This document shows, one piece after another, positions 30,625-63,815 of a DNA stretch of 64,000 bases. Under the pieces are notes generated by a model. It was not told where the DNA came from. It saw only the letters and a program-made list of their open reading frames with translations, and did not search any database. The translations under genes and the position numbers were made by a program. The DNA comes from Aphrocallistes beatrix (Eukaryota > Porifera > Hexactinellida > Sceptrulophora > Aphrocallistidae). The stretch's first letter is position 1, and each line of letters opens with the position of its first letter. The stretch spans positions 1,178,001-1,242,000 of the forward strand of contig OY725490.1 of the NCBI GenBank assembly GCA_963281255.1, read 5' to 3'.

Positions 30625-31316
30625 GTATTCATATTTATATTAGTTTATCATAAAATCAGAATATTATGTGTTGTGTTTGTCAAGAATTAAATTAAATAAT
30701 ATCTTCCTTCTCTAAATTTTCCAAATTAAAATTTAAATAAATTTTGCTGCAAAATACAATCCCGAAAAATCCCGGGATCCCGGGATTGGAAAGATCTTGA
30801 ATCCCGGGATTAGAAAAATATCAATCCCGAAATCCCGGGATTGAGAAATTTGACCGGGATTGGAATCCCTAATAGTGATCAGTACTTTTGAAATTACCTA
30901 AGTATACATTGATTTTAAGCAATTCTTTTAACTGGCACTTATATATTTTATCAGAGTGCAATAAATTGAAAATAATATCTTTCATTTTCTAGCTGCGCTC
31001 CCCTGTCGATACATCCCTAATGTAGTAGTAGTATAATGTGATGCTCGAATGCTTCTTAATTTAGATATACTAATTTATCTCAGGTCTTGATGACTTATCC
31101 GTTTCTGCATATAGGGATTGAGTAGACCTACACAGCCATCAGGAGTATCAGGATTAGACATTTCGTATTCTCTCCAACTCCTCTACTCTCACAGTAGACA
31201 AGATGTAACATACACATACACTGACAGTACTAACTTCACTCTACCATCTTCTCAACTCAGTTACAATACAACTATTACTCCTCCCAACTTCGCTCAGCTA
31301 GATGGAGTAGAAACTA

Positions 31317-32625
31317 CAAGGGTTGTCCCAAAAGTCCTCGACCGAATTATTATAAAACTAGTATACACATTACAATCAAATAAATTATTGGTCAAAACAT
31401 TCAATATATTCCCCCTTCAACTTTCTGCAGCGTTCCCATCTTTCCGGTAGCTTACCTATACCCGTGGCATAGAAATCGGGAGGGGTCCCTTTTACCCACT
31501 GATTTATCTCACGCTCCAGGTCCTTAAATGCAGTAAATCTCTTCCCACGAAGCGGTCTCTTCATCTCCCCAAACAGCCAGTAGTCGCTCGGGGCTAGGTC
31601 TGGACTGTAGGGTGGGTGGGGAACACATTCAAACCCCAAGCGATGAATGGTCTCCTTCGTTTGCTTGCTGACATGCGGTCTCGCATTATCATGTTGGAGT
31701 AACACTCCACGGCTAAGTTTCCCACGTCTCTTTCTCTTGATTGCCTCTCTCAAATCTTCAAGTTCTTGGATATAATAATCACTGTTTATAGTGGTCTTCT
31801 CAGGGAGCCAGTCAATGGAAAGTATCCCCTGCATATCCCAGAATACTGTAGCCATCCGCTTACCGGCGGACGGCGCACTCTTCGGTTTGATAGGGACTGG
31901 TTCATGCTTCCGCTTCCATTGACTGCTTTGAAATTTAGTCTCCGGTTCGTAATAATGAAACCACGTTTCATCCCCTGTCACAATGCGATCGAGGAAGTTT
32001 TTCTCACCCCTCCAGGCTGCAAGGAGTTCGCGACTAGATTTCACCCTTTCTCGTTTGTTTTCTTCAGATAGGAGTTTTGGCACCCATCGCGCAACAACTC
32101 GACTCATCTCCAAATCTTCTCGAATAATTCTATGAATCGTTGTTTTTGGAATGCCTACCCTCTCTTCTAACTCCCTGATAGTAACACGCCTGTCTTCATC
32201 CATTATCCTCTCAATTAGTTCGACGTTACCTTTGAGCCTGGAGCTTTTCGGACGTCCTGTGCGGACAGAGTCCTCGAAGGTATCCCACCCATCCTCAAAC
32301 CTTTCAACCCATCTGTATACAGTGCTTCTGCTAGGGCACCCCATACACGATCTGCACCTCTTCTAGGATCTCTCTGCGCGAATATCCGCGTTTTAATAAA
32401 AACCAAATGTTACTGCGTATACTTTCTCTAGAATGTTCCATTAGAGTGAAAACTTAAGCTGGGTCAAGTTCAGATAGAAATTCAATTATGCAATTAGAAC
32501 AGTTCTACTGTAGTCAATCTGAAGCGTAATTGAATAAGCTTCAAATTGATATACTATAAGCCTACTTGACTCGTATAATGAAAGTGATAATTCTAAACGG
32601 TCTAAGACTTTTGGGACAACCCTTG
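31317..32625 (-). mobile_element. Mariner inserted in a coding exon of receptor A
   Basis: The 1,309-bp element has terminal repeats CAAGGGTTGTCCCAAAAGTC (left) and the inverse, ending GACTTTTGGGACAACCCTTG (right), with TA on both sides (31,315-31,316 and 32,626-32,627). Deleting it with one TA restores GAAACTAACATTACAGC, exactly the uninterrupted sequence of paralogue C near 57,190. The host exon therefore existed intact before insertion. Confidence 0.95.
31385..32344 (-). CDS. Mariner transposase, D,D34D, N-terminus frameshifted
   Basis: The open frame gives 319 residues with the full catalytic domain: GRPKS linker, VTGDETWFHYY (first Asp), LLQHDNARPH (second Asp) and HPPYSPDLAPSDYWLF (third Asp). 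There are 34 residues between the second and third Asp. The true start lies further upstream at 32,441 on the minus strand, where MEHSRESIRSNIWFLLKRGY begins the helix-turn-helix in another frame. That frame meets TAG near 32,333, so a one-base frameshift around 32,335-32,350 separates the two parts. This copy is probably inactive. It belongs to a different subfamily from the mariner at 27.1 kb (different terminal repeats and transposase sequence). Confidence 0.88.
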   Translation of the reverse strand: MGCPSRSTVYRWVERFEDGWDTFEDSVRTGRPKSSRLKGNVELIERIMDEDRRVTIRELEERVGIPKTTIHRIIREDLEMSRVVARWVPKLLSEENKRERVKSSRELLAAWRGEKNFLDRIVTGDETWFHYYEPETKFQSSQWKRKHEPVPIKPKSAPSAGKRMATVFWDMQGILSIDWLPEKTTINSDYYIQELEDLREAIKRKRRGKLSRGVLLQHDNARPHVSKQTKETIHRLGFECVPHPPYSPDLAPSDYWLFGEMKRPLRGKRFTAFKDLEREINQWVKGTPPDFYATGIGKLPERWERCRKLKGEYIECFDQ

Positions 32626-33210
32626 TAACATTACAGCTAACTTGATGATAGTACAACAGTGTGGACAGTCATTCAGTGGAAAAGCAATGGAGTGTTCCTT
32701 TAGATCAAGTAAGTTAAATTACTTATTTGTTTATAAATTCACTTTTATGATATTATACTATAGAAAATAATTAAAAGCGACTAGATTATACCTCAGAGCT
32801 GCCAACCATCAATTATACAAAATCACGTTCCATAGTTGATGAATCTTCACTCCCTTGATGCTATTAGTGAGTCCAAAGGTAGGCAGTAGGTCTCGATACC
32901 CAGGATGCTCCCAGTTGGCGGACACTCTCATGATTAAAGGATTTGGGATAGTATAGCCAACAAAATCGACTCTAATATGCTATAGCATCCTTCATACATA
33001 TTTCCAAGTTTGATCGGCTCTAATTAATCATCATTGAATAATGACTCTATGATTAGGAGAGTCTCAAAATAATTATGTGTTCCTATTAAAAGCCGAAGAA
33101 ATTAGCAGTCCACCACAGCTTATTCATGCCTCTACACATTGATCTAGAAATTGCTGAACATTCTAAGGATGACGGACTGGATTAAACAGATAAGAAGTTA
33201 AGGGGATACC

Positions 33211-33345
33211 GACAATTCGCACCACGACAATTCACATCCGACAATTCGTACCGCGACAATTCACACCCGACAATTCGTACCGCGACAATTCACACCCGAC
33301 AATTCGTACCGCGACAATTCACATCCGACAGTTCGTACCACTTTT
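33211..33345. repeat. Tandem subrepeats in the left MULE terminus
   Basis: The phrase CCGACAATTCGTACCGCGAC, followed by AATTCACAC, repeats about four times with a unit near 29 bp. The right terminus (34,035-34,085) holds only about two inverted equivalents. Asymmetric, internally repeated termini probably multiply transposase-binding sites. Confidence 0.85.
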
Positions 33346-33396
33346 GATTGGTCAATTTAATTTATTATACGAGTACATACAAGTATAATGTTCTAC

Positions 33397-33950: not shown

Positions 33951-35211
33951 AGGTATCAGTTAAGATGGAATGGATTGTAAAATAAGGTTATAACAACAAT
34001 CCTATTGTATCCTATTGTGTTGTAATAACAACAATTGTGGTGCGAATTGTCGTTGGTACGAACTGTCGGGTGCGAATTGTCGGTATCCCGAAGTTAAGAT
34101 CCAAGCCACTGTAAACAAGGCTGCTAACTGAAGTTGTTGAGAACTGAATGGATTTTGTATACGAGTTAAGGCTGCATGATGTCCAATACAATATTTAGGC
34201 AAAGTATGCAATAGTAGCTATAATAAGTAGATTTGATTTGGTCTGCAGGGAGCCTCATGCAAACGCGAAGTGTTCACTAGTAGCGTTTGTCTTATAAAAC
34301 TGGACCATAAAAGTATTTCACTGTAGAAACAAGCAGGTCAGGCTTGCCTTTTGACCATTCATGTCAGATTAATTATAATTGCAAATCTTAAAAAATGACT
34401 ATTCAGTTATTTATATTTGTCCAAAATATGTGTATTCCTCCAACCTGAAGATTTTGTAATTTCTAGATTCAATAACTCAGAGTACAACCACTGCGTGTGA
34501 AGGAGACACAGTCAGTGTCAGCTGTGTACTGAATGCACCTGGTGGTCAGATGTTCCAATCTAGTGTTCCTAGTTTCCTCATTGGAGATTCTGATGTAGCC
34601 ATTTCAGTTAAAAACATCAATGACAACGAAAAACACCATGATGTAAATCTGACTAGACTGACAGCTAACACCAATCCTGGATCTCTCACGATGGTGTCTG
34701 GAGTAGTCACTCTAACTTCTTATCGGAATTCTGATGAAGGACTACGTATCGGGTGTGAAGTGCATATAGATGACGAAACTGCAGTGACCGTACATCTCCG
34801 ACTAAAACAATCATGTTGGTACCTAATTTCATTTTTAAAAAAGTTTGTGCGAATCGATTAAGGAACTGGGAAGTGCTACAAAATTTGGCATGTGCTAGGT
34901 AAATAATAATTCGTTTGCAAATGAGTTTGAATATCTGGGCAAAATTTTCAAACTTTATTGGAAAAAGTGCACATTGTGTTGACTAATGCAATTTGGTAAT
35001 TTAATAATATAGAATCTAAACAGTAGTGACTATGGGGTAGATACACTTGGAACCGTTTTTCTTACTATTTCTTTACAAGTTCAAACAGTGTGAAAAACTG
35101 TACATGATGCAATGTATGCAGTAAAAACAACGTTAGTCTCGTATTTTTGCAGATTCTCTTTAGTTGACATTAATACCTGCTTATCCAGTAAATGACAAAA
35201 TAAATGCAACA

Positions 35212-36985: not shown

Positions 36986-37338
36986 TTTTTATCCATGAAT
37001 TTTTATCCATTATTTAACTTCATATTTTAAATTTATTCTTATATATTTTCTTTTCAGTTATCATTGGAACTGCTGTGGGAGGAGCAGTCGTGCTCATAGG
37101 TTGTCTGACCACAGTAGTTATGTGTGTATTGTTTATTATTTACCTGAGGAAAAGAAAAGAAAACCCCAGTTAGTTACATTTTATAATAGATTTATGAATA
37201 TTTATTCTACTGACAAGATCCACCATCCTTTAGAATATACAGGAGCAGACGGATCTCATGTGAAAGAGTAAGTGTAATTTATCTCAATTGATAATTTGCT
37301 GTATTGTCTCATAACTGAAAAACTTTTTTAATTTAGAG

Positions 37339-37679: not shown

Positions 37680-38210
37680 ATAGAGAGATACAAATTGCAT
37701 TGTCAACGGATAGGAAGTAAAGTATTTCCTATCAAATAAGATTAGCACTTGCCTTCCCCATTACAGAGGCTCCATTTAAGAGATTCCATTGTATATTGCT
37801 TTGAACTAATATTTCTATTTTAACTCAATTGCTTTGTAGATATGAGGAGCTAGAAGAAGCTACTTACAGTCAGGTTAACAAGAAATCTAAGCTTAAGCCT
37901 GAACCTGTGAAGAAAGATGAGGTAATAGCAACATAGTACTATAAAGCATGAATTTATATGATGCTAGTTATAACAAAGTATTGATATTCAGATATCATAT
38001 TTAATAAAATATTATAGAACTCCATAGCCTTTATATATTCTAATATATTATTTCTATCAATTTCTTCCACAGAATGAGCTCACTTACTTGGAGATAGACC
38101 ATAGCTCTGGTACTAGAAAAATGGTGAAGCCTCCAACCATACCAAAAACCAACTACGTAGATATAGCTGACTTACCTGAGACTACTCAATATGTGAGTCT
38201 GCAAAACTGA

Positions 38211-39104: not shown

Positions 39105-42100
39105 ATGAGTTTGTTTGGAAATCACTTCACGCTGTTTCTTTTCTTCAGCTTTTACATTTTTTGTCAAGGTAGCATTTTTTGAATGCCAGTCAGCTCGTAC
39201 CACATACCAACAGAAATCCTGCTTTTCGCTGTGTTCTTAGATATTTCATCCAAAATGCTGTAGAAATCATACATTTAATTTTGGTAGTTGTATGTACGAG
39301 TTAACTTTTTGGTAGTTGGTATGAGTTGACTGGTTCCCGTATTTTTTTACATTAATACTCGTTAGTATAATCACTTATCATGAACCTACTTAATATGTAC
39401 AGTGGAGTCTCCCATAACGGACACTCCGAGAAATGGACAAACCTCGTGGCACGGATTAAATTTGCCAAGCATGCAATACTTAAGCTGTCTCCGAGAAGCG
39501 GACAACTCCGAACAACGGACAGGGAACTGGCCCGAACGGCGTGTCTTAATGTAAAATTATCTCCCAAGAACGGACAACCAGAAACTGCACCCAATGATTC
39601 TTATGGATATCACAAAATTTACATATAATATGAGTAGCTATTCAAGTCCACTGTCTGTTAAGTCGTTCAACAATTCTTTCATCTTGTCAATGTAAACTTT
39701 AGGTCCATAAAGACGGTACACACACGGGATTTCTAGTCCGTAACCTGCTCCTCTGTTTTCTTTCTCTCCCGTAACCTCAGCAAATGCTTTATTTACTTCT
39801 CTTCACAAAAATTGAGAAAGGCGTGGTGTTTATAGGGTACGTGTGCTTCCGTTACTCATCACTCAATATATTAATTATTATCACAGTATATTAAAACTTG
39901 TGACTTCTCCCGTCACTGTTCAACTTTAATACATGTAAAACTTCATTCAAAATGATGCATATTGAGTGTTTTGATAAAAATATGGACCAGTCTCCGAGAA
40001 GCGGACAATTCTTTACAACGGACATAAGCCATGTCCCCTACGTGTCCGTTATTCAGAGACTCCACTGTACATTCATTTATGAGGTAACTAGAATGGGAAA
40101 ATAATTTCTGAAATTCTTATTTAATAACTTTTCCACTTATAGAGGTTCATTTGTATAGAATCGAATAAAGTTGACCCAAATAAAGAGGTTCCCCATTTAT
40201 ACAGACCGACTTATCAAGGTTATATGTATAATCAGATGTAATATTGATTATTAAAAGAAGGTTTTGAAATTAAATTTCGTTACTACCTCTTATTAAACCA
40301 AGATGTAAATTCTAGGTACTGTAACTCAGACTCCCAGCACAGCATGTGTGGGAGACAGAATCACTGTCAGTTGTACACTGATACCTCCTACTGGTCAAAC
40401 ATTCACAGCTACCCTTCCGCGTTTCCTCATTGGAGATTTTAATACATCCTTTTCAGCTATCAACATCAACAACAGTGTATCACACCCTGATGTAGATCTG
40501 TCTAGACTGACAGCTTACACCAATGCTGGATCTGTCACGATGGTGTCTGGAGTAGTTACTCTACTTTCTTATCTGAATTCTGATAAAGGACTACGCATCG
40601 GTTGCGAAGTGGCTCTAAATACTGGGATGGATCTAATTGATAATACCCAATTGATCCAATCAGGTATAGATTTGTAGCTACACATAATGTTTTGTTTCAT
40701 TGATTAATTAACAACTATTTTGATAGTGGAGATTTTTTAGAAAAAGTGTCCTGATACACAGCGAAAATCAGCCCACTTCTTCTGTACAAATGTCTTCATA
40801 ATCGATGTTCCATGACGATTTAGTACCAAACACCTTTCATTCACCATGGAAATATTTCACAAATCCATTGAATTCAGTTTCAGAGATGAGGAGAGTCATT
40901 CATTTGCGAGTTAAAATTAGGTTCATCTCGCACAATCAATCAAAATGACACTTCCTCATCACCAATTAATTGGATCCAAATGGTTTTACAATAATGCTAG
41001 TTATAACTCGTATTTGCCTCTAATTCGATATGGTCAATGTACTAATAACTTCGAATGTGGAGTTAAAAGGCTCTACTGGAATCACTTAAACATATATTGG
41101 TTTTGACTTTGCGGTTCTACCTAGTTCAGCCAATGGCAGCCATTTGCCTGAGACTTGATGCAGAACTAGGAGCCTTTCAAGATCCATAGGCGGTCTTCAT
41201 TCTGAAATTCACTTAGTTTGGCTGCTAGAGATCTATATCCACTTCTAGCATTTGGATTAGTATTTCTCCCAGGAGACTGCAGGGGATTGCCATTATTTTT
41301 TGGCACAATATACACAACTCTAAATAAAGTAGTAAGATAAAGCAATCACGACGTTATTATCATTTATCAATTGGAAACTCCATTTTACACATTATTCAAG
41401 TATTTACTTAATCACTCAGCTCCCACAATGAAATGACTTGCGTTCCTCAGGCTGGGAACCACTGCTCTATTGTAGGTTTAGACATACGTATAGTATGCAT
41501 GTATATATTTTATATAGCTCCTCCTTCTGCTCCTATCAGTCTACAGAGCTCTGTATCTAACTTCAACACAGTTACTTGCTCAGCTGACATATCTCTATCA
41601 TGGAATACTCCTCCTAGCAACAGAACTGTAGATAGGTATTTCCTGTATCTTGATGGATCTCCACTAACTACTACTAATTCTAACAGTTACATTGACTCCA
41701 CTATTCTGAATATCAACACTGACTATCAGTACTCTGTAACAGCTATGAGCTGTGTTGGTAACTCTACTAACAGCTCTACTAATGTTAACTCTGTTGCAAG
41801 TGAGTCATAACTAAATTTATAGTCTTATATAGATGGCCCGCAAAGTGTATGATCAGAATATCGATCTCAGTAAATTGTTTGAACCAAATCAGATCACTTA
41901 TTTGACTTCTACGTAGATCAATAGTAATGACGTCATCATATAATTACTGAGTTTGTATAATAATAAACGAATGTTCATAATAGGGAGGTTAGAAATAGGC
42001 GACCTTGACTAGTATTCTATTGGAACCAAACTGAAGTCGATTATCATGGATTTATTGTCCCTAAAAACTTTTCTAGCTCCTCCTGCTCCCAGTCTACAGA

Positions 42101-45100
42101 GCTCTGTATATAGCCTAAACTCAGCTACTTGCTCAGCTGACATATCTCTATCATGGAATACTCCTCCTAGCAACAGAACTGTAGATTGGTATTTCCTGTA
42201 TCTTAATGGATCTCCACTACTTACTACTAATTCTACCAGTTACATTCACTCCACTATTCTGAATATCAACACTGACTATCAGTACTCTGTAACAGCTATG
42301 AACTGTATTGGTAATTCTACTCCAAGCTCTTTGAGTAATCCAATCAATATCGCAAGTCAGTGTATATATTTATAACTTCCTCTCTGTTTATCTTTTGAAA
42401 TTCTTTTCCTTTGTTTATTATTTTAGGTTATTTTCTAATGAAAAGTTCACAGTTCGCTTGTCTCGCTTATAACAACGATACTGGAGTATTGACCATTAGT
42501 TGGGTGAGTTTAACTCTTGAATATGTGAATGAAGAGACATATAATTCCCCAAAATATTATAGATATTTTCAAATATCCTATCCTGCCATGATATCTCATT
42601 AGTGTAACGTTACCCCAAACATGCATACAGTACATTACTGTAACATTACCTTAATATTAATCAATGTGAGCTCAGGCGCCTCCTGCGGACATTGTATCCG
42701 CCAGCCCCGCAGTGCGCTTATCTGAGTGAAAGCGAGATTAAACATCGAAATTTGACAACAGCATAGTATGCTATATTTAATATAGATACTAGTCATTTAG
42801 ACTGATTACTTCACCCAGTCTGCTTGGATTTGAAATTCTGATGGAATACAGGAGTACAAGAATGGAGAGTTTTTCTGCCCTACTATTCTAGTCCCGAACC
42901 TGAAAGATTATTGATAGAAGACATGTCAAAAAGCTGATATACAAGTATTATTAATTAATACTCTCTTGAATCACTTTTAAATGAACGCCTTAAACATCGA
43001 TTTTTTCTAATTTAGAACTTCTAATTTGGAACCCTATTTTATTTCTAGCTAGACCTCTGTTGATGTATATAGGGTGATGCTTCTTATTAATATACACAAT
43101 TCCTTATTTCCATTTCTGAGACTTTTATCCGTTTCTACATTTAGGATTTGGACTCATCACCAGTAAGAGAATTAGAAATAACGTATTCTCTTCAACTTTT
43201 TTACACTCACAGGAGACATAACATAGAACAAACATACAATGACAATGCTAACTTCACTCTACTATCCTCTCAAACCCAATATAGTACAAATATCACTGTT
43301 GCAAACTTTACTCAACAAGATGGAGTAGAGACAAGCATAACAGCTAACTTGACTATCGTACAACAGTGTGGGCAGTCATTCAGTGGAATGGCAATGAGCT
43401 GTTTCTTCGACTCTAGTAAGTTAACTGTTTTAGTAGTAACCATTGAGATCTCGTTTGATTTATTTATTTGCATAATATATGTACTATAATTATGTTTCAA
43501 ACAATTTTCCATGTCAATCAATCATATTTCAAGTTTAAGGAGTCATTATGATTTATTTATATGCATTGAGTTAGGTCTAATCCTATTTACCAATTATATT
43601 AAACAAGCACGCTTCGCGCACTTGCGTAAGGCGACTGGAAATGTCAAATAAATTATTAAAATATGATATTTGAAATCTACACCGCTAACAAACAAATTCT
43701 AACGTTTAATATATCTCCGAATAACGGACACATTAGGGATATGGTTTTTGTCCGTGAGAGATTCTGGAGGGTGCTTAAGTACTACATACGTATATGGCGA
43801 AATTATTCCGTCCATGAGGTTTGTCCGTTGGAGAGAGGCTGTCCCCTTTTCAATGTGTCTGTTTTGTGAGACTCTACTGCAGTGATTCTCAAAGTGGGCC
43901 GTAGAGCCCCCCAGGGGGCGCTGAAAGGTTGTTGGGGGGCGCTAATGTGTTTTGTTAGCAATACATCTACGATATTTGAACCTCAAAAAAAAATGTGTAT
44001 TCCAGAATATTGATGGTCAATCTTTGAAACAAATTTCAACATTCACTGTAGTTGTAAGAGCTAGAAAGTACAATAATCACACTGTCAATGGTTTCCCGTG
44101 ACTAATTAATACAATAATTACACTTGATGGCTTACGGATCATGAGTAAGGGGAGGGGGCGGTGTCGACAGTAAAATCCTGATTAGGGGGCGGTGTGCTAA
44201 ATTAGTTTGAGAAACACTGCTCTACTGTATAGATCAGAGTAAGTGGGGAAATTCGAATGTAAAATTAATTCAATATTAGAGGAATTGTTGGGCATGAACA
44301 ATGCTTGATGATGATATAACTAATTTTGTCCTGCGAATTAAAGATTGCATGGTGCCAAAAACTATTAAGTATAGCTCTTGTTTCTACTGAAACTGAAAAT
44401 TATACTTTTCTTTAACTGAAACTAAAATACATCAATTTTAATTTCAGTTAGGAGCCCTAATGTTAGAGACATCACTGGTTATGGCGATATAGTTAATGAT
44501 AGACATCAATAATGCACCGAAAAGGATTTTAAATAATTTTGTTTATGTGCCCTGTGCAATAATTTACAATCTATTTATAGATATTCCTCCCTTTCCACCT
44601 ACTCCTACAAACGTTACAGGTAATTTTTGTACACACCGTAATAGCTTGAATGATGCACCCAATGACAGATTATGGTTTATACTAATTATGGCCTCTTCTC
44701 AATTATCAAATAATATCTCCTATGATTACTGTCGTTGTGTGTAAATTATTTTTTGCAAGCGAGCTTCACTCACTTGCATAGCGCTGCAGGTAGACACTTT
44801 TTGGTCCTCCGAACTCTCCATTCAGGAGAATCCTGCTATAAAATAGTCAGTCTCTAATAAAATTATTTTAGTTAATTGAGAAAAATATTTTTAAAATTAA
44901 ATTTTCATGCAAACGCGAAAGTTCACTAGTCGCGCTTGTGCTTATAAAACCGGCAATAAAAGTATTTGACTGTAGAAGCAGGTCCATACCTGATTAAAAA
45001 TTATAAAACAATAAATAATGTTCAGTTATTTATATTTGTCCAAAATATGTCTATTCCTCCAAACTGTAAATATTGTAATTTCTAGCTACAATAACTCAGA

Positions 45101-49003: not shown

Positions 49004-49298
49004 TCAGATATTTTGAATTTCGGAGTATTTAGTGGGTGGAATCGGAGGTCTCTTTCTTCCAGTGTCTCTTCTGTCAAACTTGAATAATTCAGCGTACATA
49101 ACACCACTCTGTGAATAAATTAATTCCAAATTATAGATAGTAGTAATTTTCATACATAATCATTAGAGATTAAAGCATTCAATTACAAAAATCATACGAA
49201 CTGTTGAGTTTATTATTTCATTAAAAGGTGGACTTAGCTTCAAATCATCCTTCATAAAGCAACTAATTCCGATTGTCTTATTGGTGCATACTATTTAG

Positions 49299-49472
49299 TA
49301 CAGTCGACTCCGCTTAATATGGTCACTGCTTAATCGGACCATTTCTGGCATGACTGAAATAGCTTTACACATAGAAGCTAATAGAAAATATTCCTCGGTT
49401 AATAGGGTTCTCCGCTTAAAGGGGTAAAATGTCCTCTGACCGATGTGACCCTATTAAGCGGAGTCGCCTGTA
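49299..49472. mobile_element. Tc1/mariner-type MITE in the last intron region of D
   Basis: The 174-bp element has inverted ends TACAGTCGACTCCGCTTAAT and the inverse ending TTAAGCGGAGTCGCCTGTA, with TA at both borders. CGCTTAAT-like phrases recur inside. It lies in the intron between exons 49,106 and 49,717 of receptor D. Confidence 0.88.
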
Positions 49473-50109
49473 TTAAACTCCCCTAACCGTGTTTATGTAT
49501 CTGAGTTAATTATGCTAATTTTGGGAAACATAAAATATTTGATGAGTACATAGTAGCCCCATTTAAACAATATACATACCTTAACTTCATTCTCGTATCT
49601 AGATAAGAGAAAGAACTAGTGTAATAAACTTATTGGATTAATAATTTATGATTACTAAATTCCAGTATTTTAAATGAAATAAATATAAATAGTAGTATTT
49701 ATAATACAAAATTTACCTTTGTATCTGATAGTCTTCTCTGCATCTATACATAAACGAAATGAGAGATTTAAAACTCTGGAAACATTTTAAATAATTCAAA
49801 GTAACTAATTCATACCTTTTTCTTAAACAATGAAATCCCATTCCAATCAATGCGATGAGAACGAGAAGGAGAAGAGATAAAAGTCCAACTATGTAGCCAA
49901 TGAGGTGTATCCAGGGAATTTGAGCTAAACAGAGACTTAACGATAAAAATACTCACATGAGAGATTATATAACCGTGTATATCCTGAATATTATCTGGGG
50001 AATTATTGCGTTTTTGTATCATTTACTGATGAAAAAATAAAATTTCGGAAATGAGAGACTTTTAACTGAATTTTGTCAACACCGGTCAACCTTTAGGTGT
50101 AAAATGAAA

Positions 50110-50275
50110 AGTGAAATTTCTAATTATAACAATGGTGACGATGTTCTCTCAATTCCTTGGTGAGTTGACATTTTTCTGAGATTCATACTTGCTCGAGCCA
50201 GTCTCACAAGATACTGTGATGTGCAAAAAACTGGTTTTCTGCTACTGATAGTAGCTTAGATTAATTCGTTACACA
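50110..50275 (+). repeat. Diverged 3' fragment of the dispersed repeat
   Basis: It aligns loosely with the 3' end of the family: GGTGAGTTGACATTTTTCTG, GCCAGTCTCACAAGATACT, and an end in TTAGATTAATTCGTTACA followed by a TA-rich stretch. It is much more diverged than the other copies, so old. It lies in an intron of receptor D. Confidence 0.5.
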
Positions 50276-53008
50276 TGTACGTATATCTCAATAGCTAAGT
50301 TGACTAATTCATTGAAAGATGATGAAGAATTATGAATTATTCAAAATTTCAAACATTAGTGCAGATTCTATGCCAAAAGTGTTTAAAAGGTTGTTCATGT
50401 TATATACCTCTAACATTGCGAGTCAGTCTCTAAGCGAATATCAAATATTTTTTTCATTATTTTCGTTTCAAATTTGAGTAATTCATTGATAATTCATGAA
50501 TTAGTCAACTTAGCTCAATCGTTTCTATTTATTATCTTTAGTATCCAACAGGATTATTCTCTTCTGCATGCATTCAATACACTAACGTAACTCAATTAAA
50601 AGCGGGTAGCTGTATGTAATTTAGTTTACTTAATGACTATACTGATTTGATGATGGTGAATGTATTGATTACTTACTGGTGTTTGAATCAGAAGTGTGGA
50701 GTAGTATAGTTGTATTGGTACTAGGCTTAGCTGTCTGTGTATTATTAGACGAAGTTGTAGTTGGAGGGATAGCAGGATTGTCTGAATAAAAGATACAATA
50801 GTATACCACCACGGTGTTGAGAATGGTGATGTAGAGCTAACTAAATACAATGAGATTCCTGACATACCTGATTTAAAGAAACATCCCATTGCTTTTCCAC
50901 TGAATGACTGTCCACACTGCTGTACTATCGTCAAGTTAGCTGTAATGTTAGTCTCGACTCCATCTAGCTGAGTGAAGTTGTGAGCAGTTAGAACTGTATT
51001 GTAACTGAGTTGAGAAGATGGTAGAGTGAAGCTAGTACTGTCAGTGTATGTGTATGTTACACCTTGTCTACTGTGAGAGTAGAGGAGTTGGAGAGAATAC
51101 GAAATGTCTAATCCTGATACTCCTGATGGCTGTGTGGGTGTACTTAATTCCTAAAATATGAATATAACCCTGTTACAGAATGCTATGAAGGTTGAAATTT
51201 AAAAACAGTTGCACAAAGCATCTTCCACATTATAAAATATCAGTATTCCATTTATGATCAAAAAGACTTATCCATCATAGATGGTGCAGTCATCATAATA
51301 TTTTCATTATCAAGATGTTTCAGTAGTTAACATGATAACTAAAACACTTCTTACTACCAAGTTTAACCAGTCGCCCTGTAAATATAAATCTTCAAACTTT
51401 GAAATTTACTAAAATACTTGTAGCCAAACAAGAATAGTAACAGATCAACTTACCCAATTGATTGTTAGATCTCCTGTGGCATTATGATAATCAAGACACA
51501 CAAACTGAGAACTCTTTGTTAGTGAATAACCTAATTGAATTGCAGACATATTAAATACTACCTCTAACTTTATTATAAGATTTAAATGTGTAAAACTCAC
51601 TTGCAACAGAATTAACATTAGTAGAGCTGTTAAGTCGAGTTACCAGCACAGCTCATAGCTGTTACAGAGTACTGATAGTCAGTGTTGATATTCAGATTAG
51701 TGGAGTGATTGTAACTGTTAGAATTAGTTGTAGCTAGTGGAGATCCATCAAGATACAGGAAATACCTATCTACAGTTCTGTTACTAGGAGGAGTATTCCA
51801 TGATAGAGATATGTCAGCTGAGCAAGTAGATGTGTTGAAGTTAGAAACAGAGCTCTGTATACTGGGAGCAGAAGGAGGAGCTAGGAACAATTTTAAATAA
51901 GATACACTCAAGGACAACTTATGACATTATAATTTTTCATCTTTATTTTTAATAAACTAGGTCTGCTCGTGGGCAATGAATTAAAATTGTAACATATGAT
52001 ATTTAAAATAGTGTAGATCGACAGACCGATAGTTCAGTTTTGATAAGTGACTATATTAATGCAGCAGTTTTCAACCCTTTTAGCAATGGAATTATAACTA
52101 ATATAGCAATAATTCTACATTCTGTGGATATATTCCAGTTCATTTTCCATCTTCACAAGTGTAGAAACTAATTAAAATTTTCATCTATGTTTTAAGACTG
52201 CATAAATCCGATTGGTGTTTTCTAGGACAATATTTTGTTAATATTTACATTTAAAAAGTAAACCCAAATTTAGTTTTTAGAAACAGGCACTTTAAAATGG
52301 TTACATAAGAAATGAGATTATTATAAAGGTGAGAAGCATGATAAGTTTACACATACCAGCTCCAACTACTCGATGAGTTATGATTAATATTTCTGACACA
52401 TCTGGTTCAATCTCTCTCATATCAACCATGCATCCGATAGGAATGCCTTCATCTGAGCTGTTGTAGACAAAAGAGATATATCCGTTTACACTCTTCAAAG
52501 ATCCAATTGGTATATAAGGCTGGAATCGATTTAAATCAACGCCTTTATAGCTACAAATACCGATATTTCGGCATCCAAAAATTGCATTCTCAAGGCCGTT
52601 AATGTTGAAGCTAACTTCTGTGGCAGTGAATGTGTATCCATCATTCGGTACAGTTAGTACACAGCTGACTGTGATGCTCTCTCCTTCACACGCATAATCA
52701 GAATTCTGTGTGACTGAAGTACCTGAAAAGAGAATGATAGCAAGAATTATGTTAAGAGTAAGAATGGTGAGTTAGTAGTGGAAGAAGTATGTGTAATTAA
52801 GTCCATGGAATCTACTAGCGACAAATGTAAACTGCGTCTAAAATTGAACAAAGTAGGTAGAATTGAATTTGAATAGTTCCTTACTTACCATAGAGGAGAA
52901 TAAGATGTGTGGAGAGAAAGAATATTTGGAAGAGTTTGAACATGTTTATCTAATTGTCAAATCTTCAGTTAACCTCCTTCTAACAGCAACGAGCTAATGA
53001 AAAATCAA

Positions 53009-55033: not shown

Positions 55034-57636
55034 TAGATCTATTCATCTAGTGCAATCTCATAATTTGATATCAGATTTGCAATAGCTGTCATAGTTTAAA
55101 TGGATTTTACTCAAGGATAGATCTATTTAGTACTAATTATGATGCAAATTAATGCTGTGTAAATTAAAGATTTGACAATTAGATAAACATGTTTAATCTC
55201 TTCCAAATATTTCTTCTCTCCACACATCTTATTCTCCTCTATGGTAATGGTAAGTAAGGAACTATTATAATTCAATTCTACCTACTTAGTTCAATTTTAG
55301 TTTACATTTGTCGCTAGTAGATTCCATAGACTTAATTACACATACTTCTTCCACTACTAACCCACCATTCTTACTCTTATATAATTATTGCTATCATTCT
55401 CTTTTCAGGTACTTCAATCACACAGAATCCTGATTATGCGTGTGAAGGAGAGAGCATCACAGTCAGCTGTGTACTAACTGTACCGAGTAGTGGATCAATA
55501 TTCACAACAGAAGCAACTGACTTCATCATTGGAGAAACTAATGTTCCTATTTCTAAGCGTGCGATTGACATGAATGAAACTCAGAATGGTATTGATTTAT
55601 CTCGATTCAATGTTGATGCACCCATCGGAAATACAACATATGTGGCTGGATCCATCACTCTTCTCTCTTACAACAGTTCTACGGACAAAGATCTCCGTAT
55701 GGGATGCCATGTTAGGACCAGGGCTAGTGGAGCATCGTCGTCAGAACCATTTATTCAAACTATTCGATTGGTTCCAGCTGGTATGTATTGTAAATTAACA
55801 TTGATATATTTTATATATTTTCCATTATTCTATTACTGTTAAATCCTGAAATTCAAATAATTATCTGAAGACCAGCGAATATTTTTGATGGATTCAATGG
55901 AGCAGCATTTTCGATATGTCTGCGTCCATTTGTTGTAAAAACCCCCTCGCAGACGCAGGATGGTAGTGTACTTCCAAAGTGAAATGTGATTGAGTCACAA
56001 TTCCTCGATTTTGTTAATTCCTTTTCTGATGACTCATCATGATGTCACTATGATGCGTTAGCATAATATTGTGAGAAACACCCAAAATAAACATTTTATT
56101 CCTCAATTTTATCTCTCACCATTCACAAGATATGCCCTCTGTTAAATATTTAAAATGCGTAGATTTATAAAGTTGGCGTCATCATAATGAAACCAGGATA
56201 ATACTGTAGAAACATCCATATGGAGCATTGTTGATTTGCTGAGAAGTTTCGGATGACCGGATACAAACATTCATTTTAGAACTTTGCACCTTTTGAAAGT
56301 CGGTATGCTTATAGGCTATGCCCTACCAGGCTACATACTTCTATTTACCACGTACGCGGGAAAAGCATAATGTTTATAACTAGCTATATTTCTTAGCTCT
56401 TCCTTCTCCTCCCAACAGTCTACAGAGTTCTGTGTCTAACTTCAACACAGCTACTTGCTCAGCTGACATATCTATATTAGGGAATACTCCTCCTAGCAAC
56501 AGAACTGTAGATATGTATTTCCTGTATCTTGATGGATCTCCACTAGCTACTACTAATTCTAACAGTTACATTTACTCCACTATTCTGAATATCAACACTG
56601 ACTATCAGTACTCTGTAACAGCTATGAGCTGTGCTGGTAACTCTACTACCAGCTCTACTAATGTTCCCTCTGTTGCCAGTGAGTCCTAATTGCACATTAT
56701 GTGTAAGAGTTATTTCACACATCAACAATGCTATAACATTATAAACATGTTTAGGTTACTCATTAATGAGGAGTTCTCAGCCTGAGTGTCTTGCATATGA
56801 CAATGTCACAAGAGTACTCACAGTTAATTGGGTGAGTTCAATCTTAGCATTATAGCATTAAGTAATTTCACTCTGCGTTAGTATGATTGAAATCCATACG
56901 TTTACTAAAAACAACATTTCTATTTGTTTTATTTAATTTATATTATTCTCCTTTGGAATATTATTATTAGACAAAAATCAAGAAAAGATATTGTATCTAA
57001 AATATTCTACATTTAGACATTGAGTACTCCTACACAGCCATCAGGAGTATCAGGATTAGACATTTCGTATTCTCTCCAACTCCTCTACTCTCACATACAC
57101 TGACAGTACTAGCTTCACTCTACCATCTTCTCAACTCAGTTACAATACAGTTCTAACTGCTCACAACTTCACTCAGCTAGATGGAGTAGAAACTAACATT
57201 ACAGCTAACTTGATGATAGTAGAACAGTGTGGACAGTCATTCAGTGGAACACCAATGGAATGTTTTTTCAACTCGAGTATGTCACTATTTTTTATCGGTT
57301 CTAATTGTTGACTTACTTTTTCAGGGATTTTATATCAGTAACACATGTCTTACCCTAAATTTCTATTTGTAAAGTTCACTCTACAATGTAATTTCTATTA
57401 CAAATCTAAAAGAGATTTGTTACTCTTAATCTAAAATATTTAGTTACTTTTTATATACAATTAGTATTGTATGGCTGCTACAATACTAATTAGGCTGTGA
57501 CTGCTCCTAACTAGGTTTTAAACAATAAATCTTGATATACTGTAATAGGATCACAGGTGTATTTTATTTTATATTTAATATTGTACCGTACTTTCAGAAA
57601 CAATTCCCACCACTACTGCAACTCCTACAACTCCTA

Positions 57637-59176
57637 GTAAGTTAAAAATATAGTTGTATTTATATTTTGATTTATAAACGTTTTAAGTATATTTTGATAT
57701 CATCTGTACTATTCTGTAGGAAAGAAAATTCGTTTGTTATGCATTCATATCAATGCCAACATTATAATAATTAAAATTTATTTTGCTTTGGGGGCTTGTG
57801 TATTTTTTGTTCTAGATGAACTTTATACCTCAGAGACCTTTCTCCGTTTTCATAACCCTAACTTCAAATTCACAATTATTTGTACTACAACGAATAATAA
57901 TGTGAAAAGATATCACCCATGCCAATTGTCCTATTTTTGGCGAGACGTCCCGCTTTTATCACGACAAGTTGGAATGTACGAGACATTGAAGTTACATACA
58001 TAAACCATACTATGTTTAGATTTTGAATCTAGACGAAATTTTAACTCCTCTGTGGAGAAAAAAAAACACAACAAAAACACACTTTTTCGAAACATTATTT
58101 ATGACTTCACTCCCACAATACGAAATCCTTTGTAACACACCGTGCTTGAATATGATATATACTTCAAAATAACAACAAATGCATATTGTTAATTTTCTCA
58201 CAGTACATAGCATTGAATGATGCATATTTTTAAAACAAAAGTATAGAGGCTATGTTTCAAACAGGAATTATACAACCATCCAAAGATACGCTCCTAGTCT
58301 CAAACCCATTAATGTTCATGGGGCGCTTAAATCGCTAAATAACATTACAATATATAAAATGTAAATTGGGTAATTGTCTAAACTTTCACGTTCCTAAACA
58401 CTTTCAGGCTTAAAACCATAGCCTAAAGGAGAGTTTCTCGCTCTTAGATAATCCCTTGGTTTCAAATGTGTACATTCGAAAATCAATAGCGAACATTTTG
58501 TTCAGAATGTAAATGTTAATTTTGTTGATAAGCAAATATGCGATAGGAGAGAGTTGCTCGATGAGTGAACTTGGTAGACATAGAATGCCGTACTGTATAA
58601 GCAAGCGAACCTTGTTAGTTTTTGCTCGTATAAAGTTCGTAATACATTTAGCGCACATATACGTGGAATCTTTGTGAATATTGATTTCGGCTATTTTTCG
58701 GGAATATGTCTGGTCTTGGTTCAGATAATTTTACATTTCTAGCACCTCCCAGTTCCTCAATCAATTCTACAAAAAAAAACAAAAAAAATGCGTTTTATTA
58801 CAATATAAGGTGCTACTGATACAACTTCACTAAGTGAGTAATATTAGTAGTATTCACATTTGCAATTATAGAGAATTTATACATAATATTTATTTTTCAT
58901 AACTCCTGAGATAATTAACCTCGAACTCACTGCTTTAGACTCAGCAACTTAGTAGTTGTGTATGATAGGTATGACCTTGAGATAGTACGATGGCAATAAA
59001 ATTAAAACAAAATTCCAGACTTCACAAAAGTTTAAGTTAGAAACTCCTTGAAATGAGTGAAAAGAATCGTGAGAGAATTCCTATAATACGCATAGTAGTT
59101 AATTTATCCATTATTTAATCTTATACTAGATAGGTACTTTTTAATTTATTCTAATATATTTCTTCCTTAATTACAG
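57637..59176. other. Large intron of receptor C, partly unexplained
   Basis: No Ig-like exon equivalent to that of A and B is found here. Bases 58,918-58,985 match the intron of A near 36,690-36,780 (CTCACTGCT and AGACTCAGCAACTTAGTA). The stretch 57,720-58,740 has no counterpart in A or B and no recognisable transposon ends. Small frames at 57,734-58,003 and 58,410-58,658 resemble no family I know. Confidence 0.5.
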
Positions 59177-59456
59177 ATAACATTGACGCTGCAATGGGAG
59201 TCGTGATCTTATTTATTGTGATCACACTCATAATTCAGTTTGTTTTGCGTATTATTTTGCTGAAAGAAGAAAGAGGTTCAGTTATATTTTATGATTAGAT
59301 TTACTAAGTATTATGTCTACTGACTAGATCCACCATTCTTTAGGACATACAGGAACAGATTGATCTGATAGGAAGAAGTAAGTGTACTTGGATAGACAAT
59401 ACCTCAATTGGTATATTTGCTATATTTTCCCATAACTGAAAGAATTGAATTTAGAG

Positions 59457-59608
59457 CAGGGTGTATAGCCATGGAACTGCTGGAACTCTAAAATGGGTAT
59501 TGAGATGTCGTACCTATCCTCCATACCATGACTCAAGAATACATGTGGTCGTAAAACAATTTAACTTCTTATTTGTGGTATTTATGCAAAAAGGGTTGAG
59601 AATCCATG
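59457..59608. mobile_element. Internally deleted copy of the A/C-shared hAT MITE
   Basis: The left junction GAATTTAGAGCAGG and the right part AAAAGGGTTGAGAATCCATG match the MITE at 37,339 in the equivalent intron of A, with about 190 bp lost inside. Confidence 0.7.
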
Positions 59609-59885
59609 ATTGAGAGTGACAAAATGTATTATCAACGAATAGAAAGTAAGGTATTTCCTATCAAATATTGATACTTGTCTCCCTCATCTGGAAAGGTTTC
59701 TCAATTACAGAGACTCCATTTAGATAGATTCCACTGTATATTACTTTGAACTGCTGATATTTCTATTTTATCCTATTTGCTTTGGTAGATATCAGGAAGT
59801 AGACGAAGTTACTTACAGTCAGATTATCAAGGAACCTAATCCTGAGCTTGAACTTGTGAAGAAGGATGAGATAATAACAACATAG

Positions 59886-60655: not shown

Positions 60656-60670
60656 ATATACTATAAGTCA

Positions 60671-60833: not shown

Positions 60834-61450
60834 TCTCAAAAACTAATGGTCTTATTTTATACGACGTTATGATCCAATTGTTTTTATAGTGAATTACTTA
60901 AGGACTGGGAGCAGATAAAGATTTTGTGCAAGGATAGAGTCCTGTTTGGGGAAGAACAATCATATTCATCCAACATTGCTATATACTCACTCAACCGTGA
61001 AGAAGATCGTGGATATTTTGTCTCGCATCTGCAAGCTTGTGAACTCATAGGATTGATTGCTAGGATTTTCATCCATTTACACGCCTAAATAGTTATCCAC
61101 AGTAGAGATTGAAGAAGTGTAACTATGTCTTCAGCTTTTGATAAGTTTGTTATGTTTGAAGCTGTACTACCGATCCGATACGAACACTACTCTTCTAACT
61201 ATGTCTTCTAAAGTCCATGGATTTCTCCGTTTATGAACATTATATGCGCTGAATAATGGGCTATCTTCCTACTAGCAGTATACACTCCGTATCAATTTCA
61301 GTAGTTGTTACATATTAATTAATTAAAATACTTTTAACAAAAGGTTCCTCTTAGTTTGGTCACCTGGTGATATACGTATAATCAATGTGTATCGATTACA
61401 TCGATTAGTCCAATATAATACTGGTACTGTAGTTAAATTTGAGTTAGTGA

Positions 61451-61605
61451 TACAGTGGACTTCTCTTTAATAGACTCATAAATTAATCTTGTAAATTTCG
61501 GCAAGACCAGAATAGTTCTTGCGCATAGAAGCTAATAATAAATACATCAGTTAAAAGGGAACTCTGTTTGATCAGGCCAAACTACCCATAAGCGAGCCAA
61601 TTGTA
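61451..61605. mobile_element. Degraded MITE, second copy
   Basis: The ends are TACAGTGGACTTCTCTTTAA and GCGAGCCAATTGTA. Similarity to the copy at 60,671 continues beyond both elements, so the pair arose by segmental duplication and not by two insertions. Confidence 0.6.
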
Positions 61606-61840
61606 TCTCAAAGACAAATAATATCCTTAAATCTAGGATCATTATTTCATCGCTTTAATAATCTATGACATTATGATATATATTCTATTCAGCTATTCTC
61701 TGTCGCACATATTTTTCAATGCTATATATTGAATTTTCTATGATCATAACTACTATGATAAGGACTGGAAACAGATTTAAAATTTTGGACCACGGATAGA
61801 TTCCTGTTTGAAGAGGAATCATCATATCAATACGTCATTA
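61606..61840. repeat. Flank of the duplicated segment 60.67-61.08 kb
   Basis: AAGGACTGG, AACAGATT, AGATTCCTGTTTG and AATCATCATAT here match GGACTGGGAGCAGAT, AGAGTCCTGTTTG and AATCATATTCAT at 60,902-60,970. The unit repeats at roughly +780 and is moderately diverged. Confidence 0.55.
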
Positions 61841-61954
61841 CTTCCTTTCTTTATTCCTGTTATATAATTATACTATATAATCATGTTATAAACTTAGCCT
61901 GTATTTAAAGGACAGCATTCTATTTTGAACCTGACTTGATATATATTCTTTAGA

Positions 61955-63815
61955 ATGACTTTAGCAATCCAATTCATTTTCTGTATAATTTTACTATTCA
62001 TCACAAAACAAATACATTCACAAGGTAATTTGGCTTAGAATAATACAGGTTTAGGGTTTTGTGTATTTTGATGTAAATTCATATGATTTCTTTAGGTAGC
62101 AGCATCTCATTCTCTCCTAACTCACCACTCTGCATTGGAGAAGAATTTGAGATGGTATGCTATGTGGAATCTTCTGTACAGTTCAGGGCAGATGATGCCC
62201 AAGTTTCATTCAACTCTTCAAACCCTTCTTCGATTAGTCAGCTTAATTCAGACGCAGTAGTGGATGGTATCGACTTATCTCGTTACAGAGCTGACCTTGA
62301 TGACCTGAGTATCAGCATGAGCAGACCAGGGATCAGACTCATCATCAAGAGTTATCAGCCTTCTGACTCTAATACTATATTTAGATGTCATGGAGAGTTT
62401 ACGAACTTCACTGTGAGCCCTGCTCTTGTATCCGGACAACCTAATGAACAAGCTGGTAATTTTATTTATCTTTTGTTCACTTTCACAAATAGTGTAGCTT
62501 CTCTATAAAGGAAACACTCCTCATTGTGGACGGTGCATTATATCCACTTCAATTTTCCTATATTTACCATTTAGTGTTTTAGAATTTTTTCGAATTATAT
62601 ACAGCGAATCCGACAAAAATATCCAAAACTAAGGAGATTAATTTTCTCACATAACTTATAATTATAATGAATTCCAATATTATAAGGCAAAGAGAACTTC
62701 GGTCTTGTTAGAAACAGACTGTTATATATCACTAAACAAACTAAAGAAAAATACTACAGAGAAAGAATTGTAATATATCTTATTGCTGCTTATGTTTAGT
62801 CGCCCCCTTACCTCCCATCTCTCAATCTAATTATTTTTCTTCCCTCAACTCATACACGTGTGAGGCTACTTTCTCAGTTAGCTGGACACCTAACCCACAG
62901 AATGTAGTAAGATAGGATTACATAGTATATTTCAATGGACAGATGATTTCATTCACAGCTAATGTATCGTACTCCTATGATGCCACACTACAGCTTTATA
63001 CGCCGCTTTCCTTCGCTGTTGCAGCTAGCAACTGTGCTGGCAATTCCCCTCAATATAACTCTACAGTCAGTTACCCCGGTTAGACTATAGCTCATTTGTT
63101 GAAGAAATCAGTTCATAAATAAGCTTACTATGTTTACAATAGGCTACGTACTGTTCCAAAGTTCCAGTTCCTGTCTCTACTATGATAATGATTCCAGTTT
63201 GCTATCAATACAATGGGTTAGTTGTGAGATTGTGAATGAATACAACTAATGTGCTATCTAATATTTTTCTGCATTTTTGAGGTTCAAGTGACTTTAGTTT
63301 GTAATAAATTGATTGAATCTTATCTTCAATTTATCTCACAGGACCTGGATACTTTGCCATACAGACTCTTCGTACAATATTCTCTCCAATTGAACATTAC
63401 TTATACTCAGAGAAATATTTCAATTTCTTTCAGACAACTTTCTATTTTCACTCTACTCTCCTTTCTAACCAGTTACACTCAGTCCATTACTCCTCATGAC
63501 TTCTCTACAACTGATAGTATAGAGACTAACATAACAGCTTGCTTGAAGATAACTCACCAGTGCGGGCAGCCTCACACAGGCATAGACATATGTTGTTGCT
63601 ATAGTACAAGTAAGATTTCAGTCTTAAGAAATCTTAGTCTTAAGAAATCTCCATCTAAGCCAGCTCCATCTCATCCTTACGAGTACATAGATATAGATGA
63701 GATGAGTGGTAACATCAACTCTCCTACTCAACAACAATCTCCTCAGGATTATGTCCATAGAGTTCTGTACCAGAACAAGATAAGTTATCACTCAAACTCC
63801 TACTCAGTATGCTAA
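61955..63815 (+). pseudogene. Receptor gene E: SP-Ig-FN3-FN3 fused to tail, stop in FN3
   Basis: Exons: 61,955-62,024 (signal peptide MTLAIQFIFC..., hydrophobic), 62,096-62,455 (Ig-like; Cys in MVCYV and FRCHG), 62,800-63,078 (FN3), 63,143-63,216 plus 63,342-63,609 (second FN3; ITACLKITHQCGQPHTG). Phases match the paralogues. The first FN3 has an in-frame TAG at 62,913-62,915. After the last FN3 residue the usual donor is followed within a few bases by a duplicated 16-bp phrase TCTTAAGAAATCTTAG and then by tail-like sequence: KPAPSHPYEYIDIDEMSG and SPQDYVH. No linker or TM exon lies between. The C-terminal end is also out of frame with the likely ancestral ending PTQYANLK. E is the most diverged member. 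It could be a decaying gene, or its true tail may lie past the window edge. Confidence 0.7.

Follow-up and report, generated by a model that had tools for sequence, protein, structure and literature searches.

A tandem array of Ig/FN3 receptor genes with paired-type tails in a glass sponge, a candidate for self/non-self recognition

The genes behind self/non-self recognition in sponges are an open question, with aggregation factors as the standing candidates. Because glass sponges are syncytial, recognition before fusion would have special weight in them. The question is raised here by a stretch of 64,000 nucleotides from Aphrocallistes beatrix (the window; C3:1178001-1242000 in an assembly of 28 contigs and 100.5 Mb), which contains five homologous genes, A to E, for putative receptors with immunoglobulin (Ig) and fibronectin type III (FN3) domains. 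Does this locus serve recognition, and of what? On balance, we favor the view that the window is part of a tandem array, about 1.1 Mb long, of paired-type recognition receptors with the mechanism proposed below. By analogy with known systems, recognition is their most likely task, with self/non-self preferred, and the sequences make the array a strong candidate, though as yet a candidate only, for self/non-self discrimination. The whole analysis is based on one genome from one individual, that is, on DNA letters and predicted structure.

Exons were translated together with their splice sites. Ig-like, FN3, and split FN3 exons were common to the five copies, which lie where a preliminary description of the window had placed them. 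Gene B (39105-47747, + strand) has an open frame throughout, signal peptide and stop included, and encodes 704 amino acids. It has 14 exons, not 13 as previously counted, and its intactness and matching phases held: all internal acceptors are AG, all donors are GT (some weak, e.g., GTTTGT), and all phases agree. The exons of gene B run in the following order.

39105..39168, + strand: exon 1, signal peptide MSLFGNHFTLFLFFSFYIFCQ, donor GTAGCA
40316..40663, + strand: exon 2, N-terminal V-like Ig domain (translation, homology, predicted structure)
41518..41799, + strand: exon 3, FN3 (Pfam fn3, E 3.8e-5, 24.2 bits, just below the cut-off of 25)
42077..42355, + strand: exon 4, FN3 (Pfam fn3, E 4.2e-6, 27.3 bits, above the cut-off)
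42427..42503, + strand: exon 5, FN3a, first part of a split FN3 (homologues; probable FN3, no Pfam match)
43145..43415, + strand: exon 6, FN3b, second part of the split FN3 (splice sites and homologues)
44448-44477 and 44581-44619, + strand: exons 7 and 8, short linkers (splice sites and phase only)
45086..45433, + strand: exon 9, second V-like Ig domain (translation and homologues)
46067..46096, + strand: exon 10, linker (splice sites and phase only)
46341..46448, + strand: exon 11, transmembrane (TM) helix with basic stop-transfer (translation and TM homologues)
46516-46549, 47350-47437 and 47631-47747, + strand: exons 12 to 14, cytoplasmic tail with YEGL, LHYLDI (immunoreceptor tyrosine-based inhibitory motif, ITIM), TPYINI (immunoreceptor tyrosine-based switch motif, ITSM) and stop

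When ten exons were searched against Pfam, fn3 was the sole model above its own cut-off (25 bits), with the match at 42013-42375; two further copies fell below it (24.2 and 15.3 bits), other models were sub-threshold, and fn3 did not match the split FN3b exons. Gene A follows the plan of B as far as seen, and C, D, and E have a shorter plan (signal peptide, Ig, FN3, split FN3, stalk, TM, tail). All genes modelled thus consist of modules with compatible phases. A signal peptide and a V-like Ig head are followed by one or two FN3 exons and a split FN3; next comes either a stalk or a second Ig, and the last modules are a single TM helix and a short tail. Only B of the five is intact in the assembly. 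In gene C, a 1-nt frameshift, possibly an assembly error, lies near 51632 within the FN3 exon; D has a 23-nt deletion in FN3b; E has an in-frame TAG in its FN3 exon and a frameshifted tail, and no TM exon was seen in it. In gene A, the FN3 exon described at 31115 is real, but it is interrupted by a 1.3-kb mariner element. The parts of these four genes are as follows.

31115..32708, + strand: gene A, FN3b exon split by the mariner (translation and homology)
34467..34814, + strand: gene A, second Ig exon (homology)
37058..37168, + strand: gene A, TM exon (homology)
37234-37267, 37840-37921 and 38073-38210, + strand: gene A, tail exons with YEEL, YSQV, LTYLEI (ITIM), TNYVDI (ITSM) and YVSL
49004..52943, - strand: gene C, whole; signal peptide 52889-52943, Ig 52357-52722, FN3 51601-51880, FN3a 51454-51530
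50868-51150 (FN3b), 50677-50781 (stalk), 49816-49924 (TM) and tail exons to 49004, - strand: gene C, 3' part, with VMYAEL (ITIM) and TKYSEI (ITSM)
55189..59885, + strand: gene D, whole; signal peptide 55189-55243, Ig 55409-55780, FN3 56397-56678, FN3a 56755-56831
57017-57276 (FN3b), from 57598 (stalk), 59177-59275 (TM) and from about 59788 (tail with VTYSQI), + strand: gene D, 3' part, later exons placed by eye
61955..63825, + strand: gene E, pseudogene; signal peptide 61955-62024, Ig 62096-62455, FN3 62800-63078, FN3a 63143-63216
from 63342, + strand: gene E, 3' part; FN3b, running without a TM exon into a frameshifted E-class tail

The family extends far beyond the window. With the second Ig exon of B as query (E<=0.01), 80 matches were found in the genome, 70 of them on C3 and 69 within about 0.73-1.83 Mb of that contig; the FN3b exon of C gave 79 matches, of which 78 were on C3 and 75 within the same interval. 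The clustering proposed in the preliminary description was therefore correct and much larger than supposed, forming an array of about 1.1 Mb on C3. These numbers are counts of exon matches, not gene models, and the map is built from the stronger matches, with three FN3b fragments (1235020, 1210624, and 944422) excluded. Taking one FN3b exon per gene, they would correspond to roughly 60-75 copies, counting pseudogenes. Tail searches (E<=1) gave 28 E-class matches (27 on C3, one on C6), 27 of them free of internal stops, together with 14 A/B-class matches, several of them weak, and three C-class matches. Read by eye, locus L074 contains a seven-exon E-class gene that is complete. In four tailed genes (L069, two in L073, and L074), the Ig, FN3, FN3a, and FN3b core was open with fitting splice sites; for one L073 gene, the scripted exon search did not find a signal peptide.

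The tails fall into three classes. In A and B, LTYLEI or LHYLDI is followed 23 residues on by TNYVDI or TPYINI, and in C, VMYAEL is followed 23 residues on by TKYSEI (spacings counted by eye); a proline-rich stretch (PPTIP, PPTIS, PPIPP) lies between the motifs. We take these pairs to be an ITIM followed by an ITSM, as in PD-1-type tails. Tails A, B, and C each combine a single TM helix with [SIVL]xYxx[LIV] and TxYxx[VI], the consensus forms of the two motifs. The E class is the commonest tail, one copy of which reads HPYEYIDLDKLSGNISSPTQQQSPQDYVPMSSVHKQDSTQPPTQYANLK. YEYI, YVPM, and YANLK are present in all nine full-length E tails and YI[DE][LI] in eight of them, and the copy on C6 has His in place of one Tyr of the first pair. 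Presumably, YVPM is a p85-type YxxM motif and YANL a Grb2-type YxN motif. The tail end previously read for gene E is out of frame; its nine full-length relatives terminate in YANLK.

Enrichment of YxxL/I/V, also claimed in the preliminary description, was evident when tails A, C, and the L074 E-class tail were pooled: ten motifs were present against 2.13 expected, a number reached in none of 20,000 shuffles. Taken alone, the C tail gave p 0.09 for YxxL/I/V and p 0.004 for the ITIM pattern when Thr was accepted at -2, and the E tail gave p 0.007 and p 0.16, respectively. The ITIM half of the earlier assignment stands for A, B, and C, whereas the ITAM (immunoreceptor tyrosine-based activation motif) half does not: the spacing YxxL/I-x(6-12)-YxxL/I was not found by eye in any tail read. 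An ITAM-type receptor was rejected on this spacing and on the absence of a Syk-like arrangement from the domain matches listed. For the modelled genes, a receptor tyrosine kinase or phosphatase was also rejected, as stop codons end the tails read after about 54-92 residues without a catalytic domain.

Tails of different class are carried on similar FN3b exons. Among 15 genes, each assigned to a class by its nearest downstream tail match, the best FN3b identities across classes were 98% (A-E), 96% (A-C), and 95% (C-E), and the medians were 0.92, 0.84, and 0.90, compared with 0.92 within E. The lowest values (0.56-0.62) were all in comparisons involving class A. Judged from these sequences, this is a paired-receptor pattern, in agreement with the earlier suggestion of mixed activating and inhibitory tails, with the FN3b of gene B (63% identical to that of C) as an exception.

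What the receptors bind would depend on the N-terminal head. Pfam, single-sequence, and six-sequence profile searches gave the head no identity; one of them returned JAML at E 0.32. In AlphaFold models of the six heads in the window, the best model reached a predicted local distance difference test (pLDDT) of 87.9 and a predicted TM-score (pTM) of 0.80, with pLDDT spanning 41.5-87.9 over five models. One Foldseek match to the PDB had E<=0.001, the shark IgNAR V domain (E 3.5e-4, TM-scores 0.57/0.62), and about 45 of the 50 matches listed were Ig-superfamily chains by title, NCAM, SYG-1, and DIP-alpha among them. This structure prediction bears out the earlier reading of the exons as Ig-like. 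A profile of 32 heads against all PDB chains gave 34 matches at E<=10, of which 32 were Ig-superfamily chains, mostly V domains, and two were AP-4. The best was JAML (E 0.0046), followed by TCR beta, antibody chains, VNAR, the poliovirus receptor, and SYG-2.

In the 32-head alignment, C17, C95, and D88 are invariant and R62 is present in at least 90%. The B-F strand cysteine pair, the Arg/Asp salt-bridge pair, and the D-x-G ahead of the F cysteine are present, and the cysteines, the Arg, and the D-x-G of the head line up with their counterparts in JAML; the conserved strand-C Trp and the Tyr-x-Cys are absent from the alignment. None of the 32 heads matched a vertebrate-type Ig Pfam model at E<=1, and three weakly matched bacterial Ig-like models (two Big_3_5 and one Big_7, best 0.084), the other matches being unrelated. 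Because both the 32-sequence profile and the fold model match Ig-superfamily chains, the head is predicted to be a V-like Ig domain lacking the core Trp and the Tyr corner.

The heads are highly divergent, and the FN3b exon is nearly uniform in most sampled genes. Substitutions were measured by NG86 in exons taken from 252 kb of genome sequence; 36 of 41 Ig, 36 of 50 FN, 27 of 32 FN3a, 34 of 39 FN3b, and 9 of 11 E-tail exons were kept, those left out being short or off C3. Median identity was 0.41 for Ig exons (n=36; synonymous divergence, dS, 1.13), 0.57 for FN exons (n=36; quartiles 0.33-0.87, dS 0.27), 0.84 for FN3b exons (n=34; dS 0.19), and 0.73 for E tails with TM (n=9; dS 0.35, nonsynonymous to synonymous ratio, omega, 0.44). 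At dS 0.05-0.2, omega was 0.86 for Ig (21 pairs) and 0.47 for FN3b (264 pairs). Eighteen genes with an Ig exon and the next FN3b gave 153 pairs, with median identities of 0.39 for Ig and 0.52 for FN3b. In the 61 pairs with FN3b identity >0.8, the FN3b median was 0.91 (dS 0.08) and the Ig median 0.38 (dS 1.18; identity range 0.18-0.95); Ig was the lower in 61/61, and the dS of the head was about 15 times that of FN3b.

Six gene pairs were also aligned as DNA. Three aligned in exon islands only, one also at Ig (78%), and two nearly throughout. In an example of such islands, FN3b was 95% and 97% identical over 293-294 bases and the flanking introns did not align. Since FN3b is near-identical, the heads are divergent, and the flanking introns are unaligned in half of the aligned pairs, we infer exon-sized homogenization, by gene conversion or exchange, which the head would escape. 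Variability of the head peaks in segments that we placed at the V-domain loops and is highest past the F-strand Cys. Positive selection on the head was tested as an explanation and was not demonstrated, because pN/pS stayed under 1 throughout and never rose above 0.98. For the short FN3a (26 codons), the median omega over the 17 closest pairs was 1.67, a value that is given little weight.

Proteins that could read such tails appear to be encoded elsewhere in the genome. On C8, two SH2 domains (160251 and 161304) and a protein tyrosine phosphatase (PTP) domain (162018-163182) lie in order on the same strand, which suggests an SHP-like gene. A p85 subunit of PI3-kinase lies at C12:2710325-2711449, with two SH2 domains, an inter-SH2 Pfam match of 5.6e-5 (below cut-off), and p85-alpha as best PDB match (3.5e-37). 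Among the matches listed (62 SH2 matches; kinases at E<=1e-20, with 143 of 413 candidates scored), no tandem SH2 stood beside a kinase in the Syk manner, although split or weak kinases could escape such a search; this is in line with the missing ITAMs. None of the 142 kinase matches listed lies within C3:0.52-1.84 Mb. At least 155 PTP domain matches were listed, and PTP domain-pair arrays in long open frames at C15:65-276 kb and C2:51-87 kb represent another phosphotyrosine-signalling expansion.

Based on these results, we propose the following mechanism. Exon-sized conversion or exchange would keep FN3b uniform while the head escapes it, and the divergent heads would bind many different ligands. 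On ligand binding, tyrosines in the tails would be phosphorylated. The tails of classes A/B and C, with an ITSM 23 residues after the ITIM, would then dampen the response through an SHP-type phosphatase that they recruit, and E-class tails (YIDL/YVPM/YANL) would promote it through PI3-kinase p85 and Grb2-type adaptors. In the least certain step, the balance of tails might set self against non-self at tissue contact and so gate syncytial fusion.

The vertebrate KIR, LILR, SIRP, SIGLEC, and PD-1-type receptors resemble this system in shared ectodomains with opposing tails, in a similar ITIM-ITSM spacing, and in tandem arrangement. In contrast, the sponge ectodomain has FN3, and the positive class would rely on YxxM/YxN motifs within the receptor tail itself instead of a charged TM helix with an ITAM adaptor. 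The ectodomain of KIR and LILR is C2-type Ig only, whereas that of the sponge receptors is V-like Ig plus FN3. "KIR/LILR/Alr-like" is therefore used for a likeness in working, not for membership. Sponge aggregation factors are secreted proteoglycans with Calx-beta, VWA, or Wreath domains and have no Ig, FN3, TM helix, or tail; unlike them, the receptors have a TM helix and a tail, and Pfam gave fn3 alone above cut-off. In an Amphimedon graft transcriptome, aggregation-factor adhesion genes were reportedly not significantly enriched.

Among invertebrates, two papers describe the Hydractinia Alr family as an allorecognition complex of 41 genes (PMC11999971, PMC12065747). It resembles the sponge array in its clustered Ig-superfamily membrane receptors with unusual V-type domains and ITIM-type tails, and it belongs to a cnidarian, also a non-bilaterian. 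Compared by anatomy, the sponge differs in a stalk made mostly of FN3 exons, in having no ITAM seen, and in YIDL/YVPM/YANL as the commonest tail. Botryllus FcoR, of the fuhc locus, likewise has a V-type Ig head, a TM helix, and ITIM or lone-tyrosine tails; however, as described, FcoR has sushi and C2 Ig domains and no FN3, comes from a chordate, and has a function backed by locus work (PMC12065747). The AIG1 expansion of Aphrocallistes vastus is another tandem set of immune-type genes in a glass sponge, but its proteins are unrelated and 38/50 are single-exon (PMC10282587).

Which ligand, then, is the most plausible? Because the invertebrate loci closest in anatomy (Hydractinia Alr and Botryllus fuhc/FcoR) have been linked to allorecognition, self/non-self recognition is preferred. 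In its fullest and more tentative form, for which the odds are rather against, the locus might be a glass-sponge histocompatibility locus, the first allorecognition receptor locus of Porifera, in which a V domain with CDR-like variability on a homogenized FN3 stalk with an ITIM/ITSM (SHP) or YxxM/YxN (PI3K/Grb2) tail controls syncytial fusion. A serious rival, if a somewhat unlikely one, is microbial sensing: the genes could be expanded innate receptors for microbes or symbionts, with opposing tails setting a threshold for phagocytosis or tolerance and a ligand that is not conspecific. A birth-and-death array with pseudogenes and dispersed copies (C6, and a recent block on C4) is usual in pathogen-facing families. 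An immune-type domain, AIG1, is also tandemly expanded in A. vastus (PMC10282587), and the oyster CgIgIT2 is reported as an ITAM Ig receptor for microbes (PMC11999971). However, nothing in the data points to a microbial ligand, and the ITIM-bearing Ig-superfamily clusters of Hydractinia and Botryllus are tied to allorecognition (PMC12065747). It is improbable that these are ordinary adhesion or cell-identity molecules of the NCAM or DIP/Dpr type, expanded for tissue patterning. Ig plus FN3 ectodomains are common among adhesion proteins, and the fold matches of the head include NCAM, SYG-1, and DIP-alpha, but the short tails with conserved SH2-type motifs, the roughly 15-fold dS of the head over FN3b, and the three tail classes on similar FN3b exons signal diversification rather than fixed patterning. 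A decaying array with few working genes, in which conservation merely reflects recent duplication, is very improbable: A, C, D, and E are broken, the Ig exon of the C6 copy is frameshifted, and gene A holds a satellite and transposons, but four further tailed genes are open at their core exons (not every exon was modelled), 27/28 E-tail matches have no internal stop, and omega is 0.44 in the tail and 0.47 in FN3b at low dS.

Several results weigh against recognition by paired receptors as proposed here. The evidence is the genome sequence of a single individual, and four of the five copies in the window are broken. The FN3b of B is only 56-65% like most others, so that the one intact gene lies outside the homogenized set. 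For the head, pN/pS was below 1 in every segment along the domain (maximum 0.98); the best single JAML domain had an i-E of 0.11, the TCR matches span 29 residues, and all matches below the first are weak. As neither an ITAM nor a Syk-like arrangement was found, the "activating" side depends on the meanings that YxxM and YxN have in vertebrates. SHP was recognized from exon order only, and PTP exons inside the array (C3:827962 and C3:1014690-1016085) were joined to no receptor model.

If the array is indeed a histocompatibility locus, antagonistic ITIM-type signalling by V-domain receptors would be placed at the base of animals. A review argues that the receptors serving allorecognition in cnidarians through to mammals are unrelated and converge on ITIM/ITAM signalling (PMC12065747); a glass-sponge case would carry this convergence beyond Cnidaria, a PI3K/Grb2-type tail replacing the ITAM. 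The question of self and non-self in sponges becomes testable with a defined locus whose receptors combine variable heads, uniform stalks, and opposing tails. In the titles and abstract beginnings listed by searches of the open-licence literature, no such receptor locus was described in sponges, and "allorecognition" and "fibronectin" are absent from the main texts of two glass-sponge genome papers.

Some copies and related exons lie outside the array. A block with array exons is found at both C3:1685.7-1696 kb and C4:2024-2034 kb (L023/L024 and L033/L034), identical at 100% over 3,288 bases and 99.86% over 2,802 bases, which may reflect a very recent transfer or an effect of assembly or haplotypes. 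On C6, many exon-sized FN3 matches at 777-878 kb, 1030 kb, and 1338-1470 kb form a second FN3 cluster, and L077 on this contig carries an E-class tail with the frameshifted Ig of the receptor family. An Ig exon 62% identical to the second Ig of B lies near the start of C21 (13811).

Gene A contains repetitive DNA. Its first exons seem to be those of L071 (Ig, FN3, FN3, and FN3a), upstream of the window; the FN3a-FN3b intron would then be about 33 kb long and hold a 21-bp satellite and hAT-like and mariner-like open reading frames (ORFs). The satellite extends over about 23.5 kb with strong strand skew (window 1-21609 plus L071 8152-9996; C3:1176152-1199609). The mariner-like ORF in this intron, recognized by eye, is at 27207-28307 and the hAT-like ORF at 28978-30624. 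The element within the FN3b exon is as follows.

31315..32627, strand not assigned: mariner, 1.3 kb, flanked by TA, with terminal inverted repeats that are 93% complementary
31385-32362, - strand: mariner transposase ORF, open

Finally, the mitochondrial contig, C28 (17,996 bases), bears on the sponge lineage that the preliminary description had thought possible. Over 408 residues aligned with the PDB COX1 chain 8ugh, AGA stood at Ser four times, Gly three, Asn once, and Ala once; ATA stood at Ile 15 times, Val seven, Leu six, Met twice, and others three times; and TGA stood at Trp in 10/10. The Pfam COX1 score among five NCBI codes was best with table 24 (AGA=Ser, ATA=Ile, TGA=Trp; 505 bits, next 499); a tunicate, demosponge, or protostome origin is disfavored, as mitochondrial tables 9, 4, 5, and 13 score under table 24. 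The contig has the order atp6-cox3-nad2 (genes named by eye), an atp6 of 729 bases, an nad4L of 303 bases, and a +1 shift in cox3 at a TGG codon, residue 140. In the paper on the A. vastus mitochondrion (PMC2267718), AGR is Ser and AUA is Ile in glass sponges, and gene order, atp6 and nad4L sizes, and the cox3 shift agree with C28. Code, gene order, and shift site are thus of glass-sponge type, and most likely point to a hexactinellid near Aphrocallistes. One cox3 shift is reported for A. vastus (PMC2267718); in the present cox3 (L076 4326-5120), a second TGG with GGA in the +1 frame lies 14 codons past the TGG-GGA site and seems to need another +1 shift.

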